Shown: positions 21,931 through 45,964 of the stretch, in pieces
Layout of the letters: each line of letters starts with the position of its first letter
Numbering within the stretch: the first letter of the stretch is position 1
NCBI RefSeq assembly: GCF_900107545.1
Contig: NZ_FNQZ01000002.1
Span: 186,001-250,000, forward strand
Source: Pseudobutyrivibrio sp. ACV-2
GTDB lineage: Bacteria; Bacillota; Clostridia; Lachnospirales; Lachnospiraceae
Direction of reading: 5' to 3'
Length of the DNA: 64,000 nt
The notes under the pieces: model-generated
Databases searched by the model: none
Told to the model about the DNA's origin: nothing
The model's input: only the letters and a program-made list of their open reading frames with translations
Position numbers and translations under genes: made by a program

Positions 21931-22034
21931 GGTTGTCACCCAGCCCTCAGGTGCTCTGCTATTCCTATTTGCTGAGTATAGCGAAAGCGATAGCAAATAG
22001 GGATTGCAGAGTGCCTTAGGGCTGGGTGACAACC
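21931..22034 (+). repeat. Solo long hairpin with the same loop core as the nad array
   Basis: A 43-bp stem (21931-21973 with 21992-22034, five mismatches) encloses a loop reading GAGTATAGCGAAAGCGAT on the plus strand. This is the minus-strand core of the nadA-nadB units. Read as plus-strand RNA, three of the five mismatches are G-U wobbles; the other two are pyrimidine-pyrimidine. The apical GC-GAAA-GC differs from the GT-GAAA-AC of three array units by a compensatory change. It lies between niaR and ung, antisense to both. Confidence 0.8.
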
Positions 22035-22050
22035 GTGGCTTCGATATTTA

Positions 22051-22578
22051 TTACTGTAATATCCAGTCATCGATAGGCAGCCAAAAGCCCTTAGCTTTCA
22101 GCTCCTCTTCGATAATATCTAACGTGGATTCATCGTCGGCGCTAATAACATGATAGTGATACCAGCTGGTGGCGGAGCTTAAGGACTTTGATTTACCTGA
22201 AGCAATAGCTTCCATAAATTCCTTGGCTTCACGGCGTGAGCTGACATTAAGGGGAGCCTCAAGTCTGTTGTAATATCTGTGGTTGATAATGATATTTTCT
22301 GCCACTCCACCATTGTCTACTATGGTAAACAGCTCATCTAAAATCTCATCATCTGTGTGGCGGCTCTTAATGATACGCTTACATTTTTTGGATTCTGAAA
22401 CCACATAACCTCTGTTGGTGGAAGTGATTTCTATACCATTTGCCCTGATAAGGGCAATATCTGTGACAACCACCTGTCTGCTGACATTTAGTTCATTTGC
22501 CAAGGCTGTACCTGATACAGGCTTGCCAGATTTACGAATGATTTCTACTATCTTTTGTCTTCTAGCCTGTCCGTCCAT
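22051..22578 (-). CDS. niaR: NAD biosynthesis transcription repressor NiaR (HTH + 3H domain)
   Basis: Niacin-responsive repressor of 175 residues. The N-terminal winged helix-turn-helix (about 7-60, GTALANELNVSRQVVVTDIA) is followed by the 3H domain named for three conserved histidines, seen here in KSRHTDDE, INHRYY and WYHYHV. It ends the operon after nadC, 8 bases away, with a strong AGGAGGT site before the ATG. By analogy with Firmicutes NiaR it should bind nicotinic acid and repress nadABC. A matching inverted repeat overlaps the nadA promoter. Confidence 0.92.
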   Translation of the reverse strand: MDGQARRQKIVEIIRKSGKPVSGTALANELNVSRQVVVTDIALIRANGIEITSTNRGYVVSESKKCKRIIKSRHTDDEILDELFTIVDNGGVAENIIINHRYYNRLEAPLNVSSRREAKEFMEAIASGKSKSLSSATSWYHYHVISADDESTLDIIEEELKAKGFWLPIDDWILQ

Positions 22579-22586
22579 AGCACCTC

Positions 22587-23438
22587 CTAAACTGCGTGTA
22601 AATTTTTCATTGAAATGTCCATAATAGGTGCAGAATGTGTAAGTGCACCGCTTGAAACGTAATCTACACCGCTATCAATAATGTTTGCGATGTTTTCCTT
22701 TGTGACATTTCCTGAACACTCAGTTTTTGCGCGACCGTCTATTATTTTAACAGCTTCCTTCATAGTTGCAACATCCATGTTATCGAGCATGATGATGTCT
22801 GCACCAGCCTCAACAGCTTCCTTTACCTGCTCAAGAGTTTCAGTCTCAATCTCAATTTTTCTAACAAATGGAGCATATGCCTTTGCCATCTCGATGGCCT
22901 TTGTGATAGAGCCTGCTGCACCGATATGGTTGTCCTTTAAAAGGATACCATCTGAAAGATTATATCTATGGTTCTGACCACCACCACATTTTACAGCGTA
23001 CTTCTCAAAGATTCTCATGTTTGGGGTAGTCTTTCTGGTATCCAAAAGTACTGTCTTGCTGCCACTTAAAAGTGATGCTACCTGATGAGTATATGTGGCG
23101 ATACCGCTCATTCTCTGAAGGTAGTTAAGGGCTACTCTCTCTCCTGAAAGGAGCACTCTGATATCTCCCTTTACCTTAGCCATGAGCTGTCCCTTTTTAA
23201 CCTCATCTCCATCCTTTACATACTTTTCTACAACAGTAGCTTCATCAAGGATTTTGAATACTCTCTCGTACACATCCATACCACAGATGATACCATCCTG
23301 CTTGCAGATAAGGTCTACCTCACCTGGCTGTGCCTCAGGCATCACTGAGTTTGTAGTAACATCTTCACTTGAAATATCTTCTCTAAGAGCCATCTTGATA
23401 AGCTCGTCTGCGTTGAGTGTCATTGTAATATTGTTCAT
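22587..23438 (-). CDS. nadC: Nicotinate-nucleotide pyrophosphorylase (carboxylating)
   Basis: Converts quinolinate and PRPP to nicotinate mononucleotide, the third step of de novo NAD synthesis. At 283 residues it has normal length, with conserved active-site stretches ERVALNYLQRMSGIAT, LLDTRKTTPNMR, KCGGGQNHRYNLSDGILLKDNH and IEIETETLEQ. The ATG follows AAGGAGG and begins immediately after the nadB stop, so expression should be tightly linked. Confidence 0.96.
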   Translation of the reverse strand: MNNITMTLNADELIKMALREDISSEDVTTNSVMPEAQPGEVDLICKQDGIICGMDVYERVFKILDEATVVEKYVKDGDEVKKGQLMAKVKGDIRVLLSGERVALNYLQRMSGIATYTHQVASLLSGSKTVLLDTRKTTPNMRIFEKYAVKCGGGQNHRYNLSDGILLKDNHIGAAGSITKAIEMAKAYAPFVRKIEIETETLEQVKEAVEAGADIIMLDNMDVATMKEAVKIIDGRAKTECSGNVTKENIANIIDSGVDYVSSGALTHSAPIMDISMKNLHAV

Positions 23439-23439
23439 C

Positions 23440-24750
23440 TTATATTGCCTCCTTAGCGGCTCTTAATTTTTCTTCTCTTTTAATTTCACCTACTACCATC
23501 GCATGATAGTTTTCCATGATAGATGGCAAATCCTCATAGCCATCCATATTTACCAGATTTTCAAAATTATCAGACTTCTTAAATGAATCCGTATTTACGA
23601 TATCCTGTGCTGCTCTTTTTGCAAACACCAGGCTTTCAAGAAGCGAATTGCTGGCAAGTCTATTACGTCCATGCACTCCATTACAGCTAGTCTCGCCCAC
23701 TGCGTAAAGCTGCTCCATGGTGGTCTTGGAATCCTTGTCCACGTAGATTCCCCCCATGAAATAATGCTGCGCAGGAACTACTGGAACCCAGGTCTCTAGC
23801 GGGTCATAGCCTGCCTCTTTACATCTGGCATAGATATTTGGGAAATGATTTAATATTTCCTCCCTTGGAATAGGGGAAAAGTCCAGCCATACATGCTCTG
23901 TGCCCTGTTCCTTCATTTTTGCAAAAATCGCTTTGCTTACCACATCTCTTGGTTGAAGCTCATCTGTGAAACGCTCACCATTTTTATCTCTAAGCACTGC
24001 ACCCTCTCCTCGCACAGATTCAGAAATAAGAAAGCTTCTACCACTCATGTTTGAGTACAATGTGGTTGGGTGGATTTGAACATAGTCGCAGTTTTCAAGC
24101 CTTACGTTATGATACATGGCAAGTGCCAGAGCATCACCTGAAATATGGCGGAAGTTTGTGGAATGTGGATACACACCACCCAAACCGCCACAGGCAAGGA
24201 CTGTCACATCCCCCTCTATAGCTGTGGTCTTTCCATCCATATCAGCAACCACAATGCCATAGCACACATTATCCTGGCACACCCAGTCTACCATTGTGGT
24301 ATGAGCCATAAGAGTGATATTTGCTCGCTCCTTTACTCTGGCTAAAAGCTTGCTGGTGATTTCCTTTCCTGTTACATCTGCATGGAACAGAATTCTATTA
24401 TTTGAATGTGCCCCTTCCCTTGTGAACAAGAACTGACCATCCTTTTTGTCGAATTCCACGCCATAGCCTACCAAGTCTTTAATTATATCCTGAGAGCTTC
24501 TAATCATTATCTCTACAGATTCCTTACGGTTCTCGTAATGACCTGCACGCATGGTATCTTCAAAATATGAATCATAGTCATCCTCATCTCTGAGCATGCA
24601 GATACCGCCCTGTGCCAAAAAAGAATCACAGCCATCTAGCGCATCCTTTGAAATTACAAGTATTTTCTTATATTCAGGCAAGCTCAGGGCACAGAATAAA
24701 CCTGCCACGCCGCTGCCTACAATAATTACATCAAATCTTCTATTATCCAT
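23440..24750 (-). CDS. nadB: L-aspartate oxidase
   Basis: FAD-dependent oxidase that makes iminoaspartate for quinolinate synthesis; in anaerobes it is expected to use fumarate or another acceptor. The FAD-binding GSGVAGLFCAL is at the N-terminus, with SFLAQGGI, TREGAHSNNRILFH, QIHPTTLY and RGEGAVLRDKNGERF following. At about 436 residues it lacks much of the C-terminal helical region of E. coli NadB, a common short form. I chose ATG at 24750, which leads directly into the FAD motif; an in-frame ATG nine codons earlier lacks a better ribosome binding site. The hairpin array begins 23 bases upstream. Confidence 0.93.
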   Translation of the reverse strand: MDNRRFDVIIVGSGVAGLFCALSLPEYKKILVISKDALDGCDSFLAQGGICMLRDEDDYDSYFEDTMRAGHYENRKESVEIMIRSSQDIIKDLVGYGVEFDKKDGQFLFTREGAHSNNRILFHADVTGKEITSKLLARVKERANITLMAHTTMVDWVCQDNVCYGIVVADMDGKTTAIEGDVTVLACGGLGGVYPHSTNFRHISGDALALAMYHNVRLENCDYVQIHPTTLYSNMSGRSFLISESVRGEGAVLRDKNGERFTDELQPRDVVSKAIFAKMKEQGTEHVWLDFSPIPREEILNHFPNIYARCKEAGYDPLETWVPVVPAQHYFMGGIYVDKDSKTTMEQLYAVGETSCNGVHGRNRLASNSLLESLVFAKRAAQDIVNTDSFKKSDNFENLVNMDGYEDLPSIMENYHAMVVGEIKREEKLRAAKEAI

Positions 24751-24773
24751 AGTTTTTCTCAATCCTATAGTCC

Positions 24774-24853
24774 GCATACAACTGGATATAGATAATTTTC
24801 CCTCATCGTTTTCACTATACTCTCGGGAAAACCATCTATATCCAGTTATATGC
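24774..24853 (-). repeat. Hairpin unit 1 (nearest nadB)
   Basis: Arms 24774-24802 and 24825-24853 give a 29-bp stem. All three deviations from Watson-Crick pairing are G-U in minus-strand RNA. The loop on the minus strand contains GAGTATAGTGAAAACGAT. Confidence 0.85.
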
Positions 24854-24874
24854 TCATCTCAATCTTTTAGTCCG

Positions 24875-24954
24875 CCTGTACCATGGAATGAATATCATTT
24901 TACTCATCGTTTTCACTATACTCTCGGAAAATAATATTCATTCCCTGATACAGG
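24875..24954 (-). repeat. Hairpin unit 2
   Basis: Arms CCTGTA...ATTTT and AAAAT...TACAGG give a 27-bp stem with two G-U pairs and one A-G mismatch on the minus strand. The loop core is GAGTATAGTGAAAACGAT. Confidence 0.85.
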
Positions 24955-24976
24955 CTCATCTCAATCTTTTAGTCCG

Positions 24977-25056
24977 CCTGTACTATGGAATAAATATCAT
25001 TTTCTTCATCGTTTTCACTATACTCTCAGAAAATAATATTTATTCCCTAGTACAGG
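24977..25056 (-). repeat. Hairpin unit 3
   Basis: 27-bp stem closely related to unit 2. A base pair differs from unit 2 on both arms (GAATGAAT versus GAATAAAT, matched by a change on the other arm), so pairing is retained. Same loop core as unit 2. Confidence 0.85.
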
Positions 25057-25078
25057 CTCTTCTAAATCCCATAATCCG

Positions 25079-25158
25079 CCAGCATCAGTCAATACATATC
25101 ATTTCCCTCATCGCTTTCGTTATACTCTCGGGAAATAATATGTATTACCTAATGCTGG
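25079..25158 (-). repeat. Hairpin unit 4 (nearest nadA)
   Basis: 29-bp stem with a sequence unlike units 1-3 in its outer half (CCAGCAT/ATGCTGG). Three G-U pairs and one A-G mismatch occur on the minus strand. The loop core is GAGTATAACGAAAGCGAT, with the apical pairs changed. Confidence 0.82.
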
Positions 25159-25192
25159 CTCATCTAATAATTAAAAATACGTTGATTACGCG

Positions 25193-26101
25193 TTACTGCG
25201 CCAGTTCTAGCATACGCTGGAGTGGGACGAGGGAGCGGGTGCGGGTTTCGTCGCTTACTTCCACTACTCCCGTAGTGTCGCGGAGACAGTTGCGTACTTT
25301 TTCCAGTGTGACTTTTTTCATGTTAGGGCAGATTTGAACGGAGCCTGCTGCGTAGAAGGTCTTGTCTGGGTTGTTCTTTTTGAGCTGATAGAGCACGCCA
25401 AGTTCTGTGGAAATGATGAACTCCTTTTTATCAGATTTGGTAGCGTAGTCTATGATTCCTGATGTGCTTCCGATGAAGTCGGCAAGCTCTAAAACGGCCA
25501 ATGTACACTCTGGGTGGATGAGCACCTCTGCCTCTGGATGAGACTCCTTTGCGCGTTTGATCATGTCTGCTGTTACCGCCTTGTGTACGTGGCAGTATCC
25601 ATCATTGAAAATAAAATTCTTTTCTGGAACCTTTTCGGCGATGTATCTGCCCAGGTTTTCATCAGGGATGAAAAAGATGTTTTTATTAGGCAGAGCCTTT
25701 ACGATTTTCATTGCATTGGCGCTAGTGACGCATACATCTGAATGCATCTTAAGCTCTGTAGTGGAATTGATGTAGCACACTACAGCCACGTCATCATATT
25801 CCCTTCTCACTTCCTCGATGCGCTCAATTTCTGCCATGTGAGCCATAGGACAATCTGCCTTTTCATCAGGCATAAGCACAGTCTTATCCGGATTTAAAAT
25901 CTTTGCAGACTCTCCCATAAATTTAACGCCTGCAAAAACTATAGTTTTTTCCTTCAGACCAACAGCTACCTTTGCCAGATAGTAGCTATCACCAATATAA
26001 TCTGCTATTTCCTGAACCTCATCATTTACATAATAATGGGCCAGTATTACAGCATCCTTTTCTTTTTTTAATTGTTTAATCTCTTCTACCAATGTAGACA
26101 T
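25193..26101 (-). CDS. nadA: Quinolinate synthase A
   Basis: [4Fe-4S] enzyme condensing iminoaspartate with dihydroxyacetone phosphate to quinolinate. The 302 residues have the usual length, with LAHYYVNDEVQEIADYIGDS near the start and family stretches AVVCYINSTTELKM, HPECTLAVLELADFIGSTSG and FYAAGSVQICPNMKK. Cysteines expected to bind the cluster occur at C-P in MPDEKADCP, HPEC and QICP. The ATG at 26101 follows AAAGGAG. It is first in the operon, under a NiaR-like operator. The gap to nadB is unusually long and holds the hairpin array. Confidence 0.96.
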   Translation of the reverse strand: MSTLVEEIKQLKKEKDAVILAHYYVNDEVQEIADYIGDSYYLAKVAVGLKEKTIVFAGVKFMGESAKILNPDKTVLMPDEKADCPMAHMAEIERIEEVRREYDDVAVVCYINSTTELKMHSDVCVTSANAMKIVKALPNKNIFFIPDENLGRYIAEKVPEKNFIFNDGYCHVHKAVTADMIKRAKESHPEAEVLIHPECTLAVLELADFIGSTSGIIDYATKSDKKEFIISTELGVLYQLKKNNPDKTFYAAGSVQICPNMKKVTLEKVRNCLRDTTGVVEVSDETRTRSLVPLQRMLELAQ

Positions 26102-40849: not shown

Positions 40850-41537
40850 ATGGAGGAAAATAGATTGTTTGGCTGTACTATAGGTAGGGATGTAGTAAAC
40901 ATAGGTAGGCAAAAAGAGCTTGATTGGGCAAAGGCTTTCACAATTATAGTTATGGTTATAATCCATACATATGAGCAGTTCATGGCTTCAATATTTCTTT
41001 GGCCTTTTCTTCATGACAAATGACATTACAACATTTCCACTTTTCCTGTGGCTCTATTATCCTTTGATTGGTATGGCTTTTGCTAATGTGCTACGTCGTG
41101 TCACAGATAAGGGAAGCTTTTATTTCAGAATATTACTTACAGGTATAACAGGAACAATTCTTGTATCGGTTATTTATATTTTTGCTGGAATAGATATCAA
41201 AACAATGTTTATGCTTTCGGGCAGAGTGTTCTATGCACAGACAATCCTGCATTATATTTTCACAACATTTGTAATTATGACTGCGCTTCCAATTTATTAT
41301 GGATGTTCTAAATATATTAGATTTGCTCCAATAGAAAAAATGGTAGCTTATCTGGGAAACAATCTACCAACAATTTATATTGTTCAATGGATTGTTATCC
41401 ACTATGTTCAGGGAATTATGACAACTCTTGGTATACCTTGGTTTGAGAAACCAATGATTATTCCAGCAGGACTAGTAATTGTAGTTGTATCTGTTAGTAT
41501 TACAGCTTTATGGAGAAAAATAAGAATCGGAAAATAA
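40850..41537 (+). pseudogene. Disrupted membrane acyltransferase (frameshift/deletion)
   Basis: The first frame (ATG 40850, or TTG 40865 after GGAGG) reads RQKELDWAKAFTIIVMVIIH, the N-terminus of a multi-helix acyltransferase, and stops at 41023. Another frame, open from 40971 to 41537, continues with membrane helices (TTFPLFLWLYYPLIGMAFAN to the C-terminus). Both parts together encode only about 230 residues, against roughly 350-400 for intact relatives. A frameshift, probably with an internal deletion, has therefore broken the gene. The fragment from 40971 could still be translated but has no good ribosome binding site. Confidence 0.7.
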
Positions 41538-41539
41538 TC

Positions 41540-41638
41540 AAAAGGGGCTGTTAAAAAACTCCCCTAAAAGGTAAGGCTTCAGCACCAATAGTCACTGAAT
41601 CCTATCCTTTTTAGGGGAGTTTTTTAACAGCCCCTTTT
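41540..41638. terminator. Long perfect inverted repeat, probable bidirectional terminator
   Basis: The arms are identical for about 30 bases: AAAAGGGGCTGTTAAAAAAC, then TCCCCTAAAA, with the complement at 41610-41638. An inner CTCCCC/GGGGAG stem is followed by T-runs in both directions, and TTCAG/CTGAA forms the tip. It separates the convergent acyltransferase remnant and sufB. The length is unusual for a simple terminator. Confidence 0.75.
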
Positions 41639-41656
41639 ACTCATATTTTTTAATTA

Positions 41657-45325: not shown

Positions 45326-45964
45326 ACGGGCTCCTCTAAACTTGGTGTCCGGCTCCAGCCCCATTATGGCCCCCGCGACCCACACCTTCAATCAGGCAAA
45401 GTCCAAGAATTTGTATTTTCTAAATGGTACAATCAAGCTTCTTTTATTGGTAGGTGTTCTTTCAATGTTTTACATTTCTTCTCAGCTGTATGCCCTACAC
45501 AGACACATATATAAACTATAGAAATATTTCATCAGCCAGGTGGCAGGATACCCCCTACGATTTTGGAATGAACCTAGTGGTAATGGTAAGTGAGTTTTGC
45601 TAGTTTGGGCAGACCGAGCCATGGACGGCGAGGTCAAGGAGATGCTGAGCACGGATGCGAATATCGACTGGTGCCCAAACTATCAAAACTCACTTGCCAA
45701 TTACCACTTGGTGAATGGAGTATGAGTAGGGGGTATCCTGCCACCTGGCTGATGAAATATTCCGGAGACTAAAAATGTGTCTGTGTAGGTCACACATCTT
45801 CGGCGAAATGTAAAAGCAGTGAACGGACACCTACGTGAAGCTTGATTGCACCATTAAGAAAATACAAAATTCTTGTCCAAATATGCCTGTTTGAAGGTGT
45901 GGGTCGCGGGGGCCATAAGGGGGCTGGAGCCGGGGCAAAAATATAGGGGAGCCCGTCAAAAAAG
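45318..45964. repeat. Giant imperfect palindrome of about 650 bp
   Basis: From TTTTTTTGACGGGCTCC to its complement, the left half aligns with the reverse complement of the right half over almost the whole length (about 295 bases per arm). Shared blocks include GGCTCCAGCCCC, GGCCCCCGCGACCCACACC, CAATCAAGCTTC, CCTACACAGACACAT, ATATTTCATCAGCCAGGTGG and AAGTGAGTTTTG. The arms are joined by a GC-rich centre (45611-45671). No plausible gene occupies it. A centre segment TGCTGAG...GCGAA...CGA loosely recalls the small hairpin core. Confidence 0.85.

Follow-up and report, generated by a model that had tools for sequence, protein, structure and literature searches.

Tandem hairpins between nadA and nadB

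The window (the whole stretch of 64 kb of DNA that was analyzed) carries on its minus strand the genes nadA, encoding quinolinate synthase (25193..26101), nadB, encoding L-aspartate oxidase (23440..24753), and nadC, encoding nicotinate-nucleotide diphosphorylase (22587..23438), all three named by NCBIfam, together with a gene at 22051..22578 (minus strand) that had no NCBIfam match at 1e-20 and is called niaR-like here from the first-pass annotation only. Between nadA, which is upstream in the transcript, and nadB, which directly follows, lies an array of four hairpins whose RNA strand is the minus strand. The unit nearest nadB (24774..24853) has a 29-bp stem and a 22-nt loop at 24803..24824; the other three are unit 2 (24874..24955), unit 3 (24976..25057), with a stem closely similar to that of unit 2, and the unit nearest nadA (25078..25159), their loops being at 24904-24925, 25006-25027 and 25108-25129. 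Each loop holds the core of what we term head A, a near-constant 18 nt made of GAGTATA, a GNRA-like mini-hairpin GYGAAARC and GAT. The units also share similar outer flanks (TTTAGATGAGC..GCGGACTAAA), and the GTAG stalk described below is absent from them.

The first-pass annotation had reported four hairpins at a 101-102 bp period with differing yet paired arms, and this was confirmed at the positions given above: the loop regions are spaced 101, 102 and 102 from start to start, Tandem Repeats Finder gives a period of 102, and the arms are 28-30 nt long and 87-93% Watson-Crick complementary. Its near-identical loop was likewise found, the unit nearest nadA having three loop differences, and when up to 3 mismatches are allowed the window contains four matches to the 22-nt loop motif, with 0.00 expected. 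The claim of a single recurring mismatch stood in part, as the G-A occurs in three units and the one at 24874-24955 also has a C-U near the loop. Folding of the four 102-nt units as minus-strand RNA gave energies of -45.1, -37.0, -42.2 and -44.9 kcal/mol (z of -9.7, -7.5, -11.2 and -9.0; for no unit did any of 200 shuffles do as well), and their plus strands fold more weakly (-34.1, -28.4, -35.3 and -32.4) because the mismatches there are A-C rather than G-U; the minus strand is thus the better-folding one in all four units. A simple consensus scan of this strand placed one promoter-like site ahead of nadA and, in the nadA-nadB gap, none, which is in line with a single transcript through the array, such scans proving little.

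A solo copy of the same family, with a long stem and head A, occupies 21931..22034 on the plus strand, antisense to the nad genes and between the niaR-like gene and ung, the latter named by NCBIfam. Five matches in the window at E<=1 were returned by a covariance model built from 79 copies, a training set that included them: the four array units and the solo copy (21960-22005, plus strand). The one match in the window that reaches a curated Rfam gathering score is a TwoAYGGAY RNA (RF01731) far from the array, at 45562-45723 with 63.8 bits. The window also has an inverted repeat with 39-nt arms, 90% complementary and 39 nt apart, at 41531-41647.

Head A copies in the genus

When the array was compared with its own genome, 11 matches outside it were obtained at E 0.001, every one overlapping a loop; a guide-like use of the stems was rejected, none of these matches covering an arm alone. 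The 18-nt loop core GAGTATAGYGAAARCGAT has 33 matches in this genome at up to 2 mismatches, versus 3 for the reversed pattern, and 32 of the 33 are flanked by arms with at least 20 Watson-Crick pairs. Over the loci fetched from the genus we gathered 86 distinct head A copies, of which 79 have at least 20 such pairs. An alignment was made of 79 copies, leaving out seven that are degenerate or cut (two in L045, one each in L051, L091 and L098, the second of L139 and the first of L137). Variants of the tetraloop include GAAA, GCAA, GTAA, GACA and GCTA.

The core occurs at up to 1 mismatch in 17 of 29 genomes of the genus, six of which hold 31, 16, 11, 6, 5 and 4 copies while the other eleven hold one each, and the copy number is scattered over the tree of the 29 genomes (e.g. 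16 in G021 and 0 in its neighbor G020). Among 299 genomes of the family, the exact core was listed only for the two belonging to Pseudobutyrivibrio, eight others having a single one-mismatch match each, about the control level, and a scan of the public genome collection returned 21 stretches, all of them titled Pseudobutyrivibrio. A phage origin was rejected, the exact 22-nt head being absent from viral contigs. Applied to 30 further loci (14 bearing stalk elements or similar ones, 11 viral stretches and 5 purF or nadB loci), the 79-copy covariance model had a single match, to a copy at purF that has decayed.

Stalk elements, exchangeable heads and nesting

Head A is also found on a self-complementary stalk module of 72-86 nt (GTAG...GTAAC). 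Searched alone (GTAGNNNACAA, 45-75 nt, TTGTNNNNGTRAC), the stalk was present in 27 of the 29 genomes, with 5-51 copies in each of the 27 versus 0-2 per genome for the reversed pattern, and the cultured strain YE44 has 28 matches; outside the genus, 200 family genomes of 199 genera gave 5 single matches versus 17 for the control. The pattern also matched at least 120 stretches of viral contigs. In the 120 compared, agreement between the end stretches ranged from 5 to 13 of 16 positions, 103 of them having 7-10; these were taken as chance since, among the matches listed, the seven agreeing at 11 or more positions showed no such hairpin by eye. In the 14 head A copies on a stalk, the core was measured on one side to the G of GTAG and on the other to the C that precedes GTAAC; both distances are 28 or 29 nt in 11 copies, and they span 27-30 nt in all 14. 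Small purine-rich internal loops interrupt the stem at fixed positions, with tandem GA/GA beside many heads and A/GUA at the base of the stalk.

In sister species, we found the GTAG...GTAAC stalk carrying another head, AAGCGA[NNN]...[NNN]GAGCG or a variant of it, at the gpsA, nuo-like and ung gaps and at one other gap. The search with loci of G021 against four genomes used 10 of the 14 listed. Two elements of G004 are 97% identical at unrelated places, and their similarity stops at GTAG...GTAAC. At one site of G003 (L294) a stalk element sits within the apex of what reads as another, G002 having neither. Tandem pairs recur (L452, L489, L128 and L142), which makes local duplication the best reading of the nad array. 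A further long repeat with structure, GGTAAGCGCGAGCAAGAGGG...GATGGCTTGCGGGAGCATGAAA with its variants, occurs in gaps of G020 and G021 (L038, L120 and L246).

Beyond the stalk, pairing continues outward for at least 8 bp in 10 rows of our listing of stalk flanks. Most of these are terminator-like, with A- and T-tracts, the element sitting in the apex of the stem (e.g. L464, L485, L286 and L265). The outward pairing of L275 consists simply of A/T, and one site is represented in two species, as L297 and as L474; in L470 and L300 a mismatch or a few precede a terminator-like stem. It is conceivable, although we think it rather unlikely, that the stalk module behaves as a “Russian doll”, inserting into the apices of existing hairpins including terminators, itself accepting heads or whole elements, and moving by a route that requires the sense strand to fold as RNA. 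If so, insertion at an apex would be a new targeting mode for a mobile element. The nested copies themselves raise a new question, namely how hairpins come to hold other hairpins.

Covariation and G-U pairs

The 79 copies align free of gaps over 46 columns. In this alignment 90.8% of the cells pair, versus 57.1% after shuffling, and 463 cells changed on both sides, versus 139.5. The covariation score was 0.846 versus 0.190 for shuffles that, as the tool warns, ignore the relatedness of the copies, and it dropped to 0.127-0.176 when the partner was slid by 1-3 columns. The pair closing the tetraloop is U-A in 48 copies and C-G in 31, and is never broken. The first-pass annotation had attributed the pattern to selection on RNA structure and named a covariation test as its check; none of 500 shuffles of the 79 copies reached the observed score, and this result, together with an excess of G-U over A-C mismatches, supports the attribution as regards selection on a folded strand.

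Inverted duplication alone would give complementary arms, thus the kind of mismatch is the better test of selection. Read on the strand of the loop, copies sense to both neighboring genes have 99 G-U and 16 A-C mismatches (p 9e-16). The size of the excess depends on the method and all counts point the same way: 105 versus 15 when the 79 copies are read from the core outward, 142 versus 33 for all 86 copies under a loose arm alignment, 80 versus 3 for 102 stalk elements with a strict stop, and 99 versus 36 for stalks without head A when the stop is looser and bulges are read through. A neutral origin of the palindromes, by inverted duplication or template switching and free of selection, would account for their unstable presence, and palindromes can be corrected by template switching; yet it does not predict the asymmetry of 142 versus 33 and 80 versus 3, nor the narrow range of arm lengths and the conserved head and internal loops, and we regard it as very improbable.

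Copies antisense to both neighbors show the same preference (G-U 19 versus A-C 5, compared with 72 versus 9 for sense copies; Fisher p 0.30; 17 versus 11 for the antisense copies in a looser count), so this test gives no tie of the selection to transcription of the flanking genes. Because covariation lies far above its controls and G-U greatly outnumbers A-C on one strand, folding of that strand is under selection, probably as RNA and less probably as single-stranded DNA.

Turnover between related species

The nadA-nadB gap was surveyed in 28 loci of the genus. The core is present in three, as arrays in two species and a single copy in a third; 22 have gaps of 5-70 nt with no core, and three were not placed. 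The end of nadA was not found in G013 and, to judge by the length, was set wrongly in G010 and G007; G017 had no nadB match. One of the two arrays is that of G026, which has three units, partly decayed, at the same place. The alternative that the array might be unique to one strain and have no homologues is contradicted by this array and by homologues throughout the genus. A different sequence of two hairpins (TCAGTC..GAC, then GCTTCCCC..GGGGAAGC) occupies the nadA-nadB gap of G001, G006 and G014 (L152, L162 and L166), and a similar one is seen in that of G008.

Among 27 of the 29 purF loci (those of G015 and G016 being left out), the gap holds the core in 7, a hairpin with a shortened or different loop in 5, and neither in 15. 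The stem is kept in those five hairpins (L216, L208, L222, L219 and L220), which looks like decay of the head. At the ung gap, copies are present in G000 (inverted), G021 and G028, and for 16 more genomes the gaps listed measure 16-55 nt and lack the element. In two species, the head A copies that separate the niaR-like gene from ung lie in opposite orientation (21931-22034 of the window and L118) with similar innermost stems, CCTATTTGCT and CCATTTGCT; the loop was possibly inverted by recombination between the arms.

The pair G003 and G002 was compared at nine sites, eight of which were aligned (L292 was left out). The element is absent from G002 in five of them and replaced by other sequence in one, figures that overstate absence because the sites were chosen for having no evident counterpart in G002. 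At the other two, scpA and nrdR, G002 has an element whose stem differs in both arms, between flanks 91-99% identical to those of G003. Presence and stem sequence therefore turn over between related species, and since the element is absent from many orthologous gaps it is dispensable at any one operon. Viewed by eye, filled and empty gaps showed no consistent target-site duplication; the outer flanks are complementary instead (TTTAG..CTAAA).

With these natural pairs, in which related species have or lack the element at the same gene, the old question of how intercistronic repeats affect the expression of operons can be tested directly in rumen bacteria in culture.

Position relative to genes

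Gene context was taken from a crude ORF caller of our own that mislabelled some gaps (e.g. L240 and the copies marked INSIDE), and the following counts are to be read accordingly. Sixty of the 86 head A copies are sense to both neighbors, 12 are antisense to both and 14 lie in convergent or divergent gaps. The 87 stalk elements lacking a standard head A divide into 65 sense to both neighbors, 12 in convergent gaps, 4 antisense to both, 2 in divergent gaps and 4 with incomplete context; the 12 convergent ones are sense to the gene before them, and altogether 77 of the 83 with two placed neighbors are sense to the preceding gene. Comparison of filled with empty gaps places the element between the stop codon and the ribosome site, and the next ORF starts a median of 32 nt after GTAAC (65 sense stalk elements, positive distance).

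The genes downstream include purF, nadB, argJ, carA, purE, fsa/talC, rlmB, gpsA, fabZ, scpA and nrdR, among which we found no common theme. This bears on a regulon in which the head would be bound by a specific RNA-binding protein through which a signal controls expression of the genes downstream. A near-invariant head on a freely variable stem, the closeness of the elements to the starts and the recurrence of hairpins at purF and nadB in several species are what such a system would produce, but the downstream genes are unrelated, presence is patchy between related species, there are several classes of head and some elements sit in terminators after convergent genes; we consider a regulon quite unlikely.

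The special tie to NAD suggested by the place of the array was not supported by these comparisons, with relatives upstream of purF, carA, argJ, purE, fabZ, gpsA, rlmB, fsa/talC and others. That the array is a device of the NAD operon, i.e. a riboswitch or attenuator for nadB-nadC, is barely credible: it could call on the four copies here and on the same gap being filled in three species, and against it are the occurrence of the same element at many non-NAD genes, the 22 of 28 nadA-nadB gaps in which the core is absent and the lack of an Rfam match at curated thresholds.

Proposed role in the mRNA and spread of the elements

On balance we favor, with some reserve, the view that the nad array consists of four tandem copies of a spreading, REP-like modular hairpin repeat restricted to Pseudobutyrivibrio, which would work in the mRNA as a hairpin for processing or protection between cistrons. 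The element would be transcribed with the operon mRNA and fold into a rigid rod, which could stop 3'-to-5' exonucleases, be cut as long double-stranded RNA, or both, so that of the cistrons flanking the rod one would outlive the other; the four successive rods of the nad operon would uncouple the mRNA of nadA from that of nadB-nadC. RNase III cleavage, stabilization of one segment and protein binding, as put forward in the first-pass annotation, may each play a part. The near-constancy of the head suggests a protein partner, and the head is probably where a protein or ribonuclease docks. As the family spreads, local tandem duplication would make arrays. Action in the mRNA, which we infer from sequence data, is consistent with the location of the elements after stop codons, with their sense bias and with the 12:2 predominance of convergent over divergent gaps.

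The elements could also be mobile DNA hairpins of the REP or IS200/IS605-like kind, the strand-specific fold serving single-stranded DNA in transposition with no role as RNA and the sense bias reflecting insertion or tolerance. The copies are dispersed, turn over fast and can be near-identical at unrelated places or lie one inside another; a strand-specific tolerance of G-T would mimic G-U, and the antisense copies share the preference. A 5' GTAG is likewise found in REPs, according to the available text of PMC3733652. This GTAG, however, is in the paired base of the stalk rather than in an unpaired tag and is absent from the array units, and the sense orientation relative to the preceding gene (77 of 83 stalk elements without head A) argues against a DNA-only element. 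A RAYT/Y1 transposase (PF01797) was detected in 10 of the 29 genomes versus 27 of 29 for the stalk, a search that could miss a very divergent Y1, and it was not found in element-rich genomes such as G004, G006, G011, G023 and G026. A single-stranded DNA element is thus a possibility to which we give modest weight, well short of an even chance. As mobilizer, the Y1/RAYT transposase was rejected since its presence does not track the copy number of the family.

RAYT-like Y1 proteins were noted in G001 (L192), G010 (L193) and G000 (L197), and these three loci have no head at fewer than 3 mismatches. Beside the protein in L192 and L197 is a gene that resembles comM.

What appeared to be an oddity of one operon belongs to a system that extends across a genus of gut bacteria, dozens of copies being present per genome.

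Comparison with known systems

At the curated gathering score, Rfam release 15 gave no match over the array or the relatives searched, in agreement with the first-pass view that the array resembles no known NAD riboswitch. Searches at permissive settings turned up nothing but weak matches below the curated thresholds, most of them of microRNA shape, the long hairpins of the array family scoring weakly against several microRNA families by shape, and an NAD riboswitch or other Rfam family was therefore rejected. We found no description of this hairpin family in the open-licence papers searched.

The closest likeness is to the GTAG REPs, REPINs and BIMEs, which, as the available portions of PMC3733652 and PMC8266576 describe them, are intergenic palindromes in dispersed copies of high number, in tandem or nested, with a 5' GTAG and a proposed role in mRNA stability; the REPs measure 20-40 bp, carry the GTAG as an unpaired tag and are associated with RAYTs. 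Dispersed intergenic palindromic copies are what we observed in 27 of the 29 genomes, with the GTAG on the stalk. The Pseudobutyrivibrio unit differs from REPs in being about 75-100 nt long against the 20-40 bp given there, in having stems that change freely yet stay paired and heads that are exchangeable, and in the placing of its GTAG in the base of the stalk, with a G-U of GTAG facing the A-C of GTAAC.

In Escherichia coli, intercistronic hairpins that lack U-tracts protect upstream cistrons, as reported in the part of PMC5927463 available to us. The elements described here share with such protective hairpins of the malE-malF type a stable hairpin after the stop codon within an operon and no need of a U-tract, and a stable hairpin in the operon gap after the upstream stop codon is indeed what we found. 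The malE-malF type, however, is a function and not a sequence family.

Transcribed hairpin repeats may stabilize or destabilize mRNA, according to the available text of PMC3733652 and PMC1590033. The Ype and Efa stem-loop repeats resemble ours in lying near the 3' ends of genes and in their suspected effect on mRNA stability (available text of PMC1590033); a constant head on a freely changing paired stem is absent from their description in that text, as far as compared. The broad kind, dispersed REP-like hairpin repeats, is thus already known. What is new, as far as our searches go, is that a head and an arm length that hardly vary are combined with a paired stem that changes freely, with exchangeable heads and with the nesting of one element within another.
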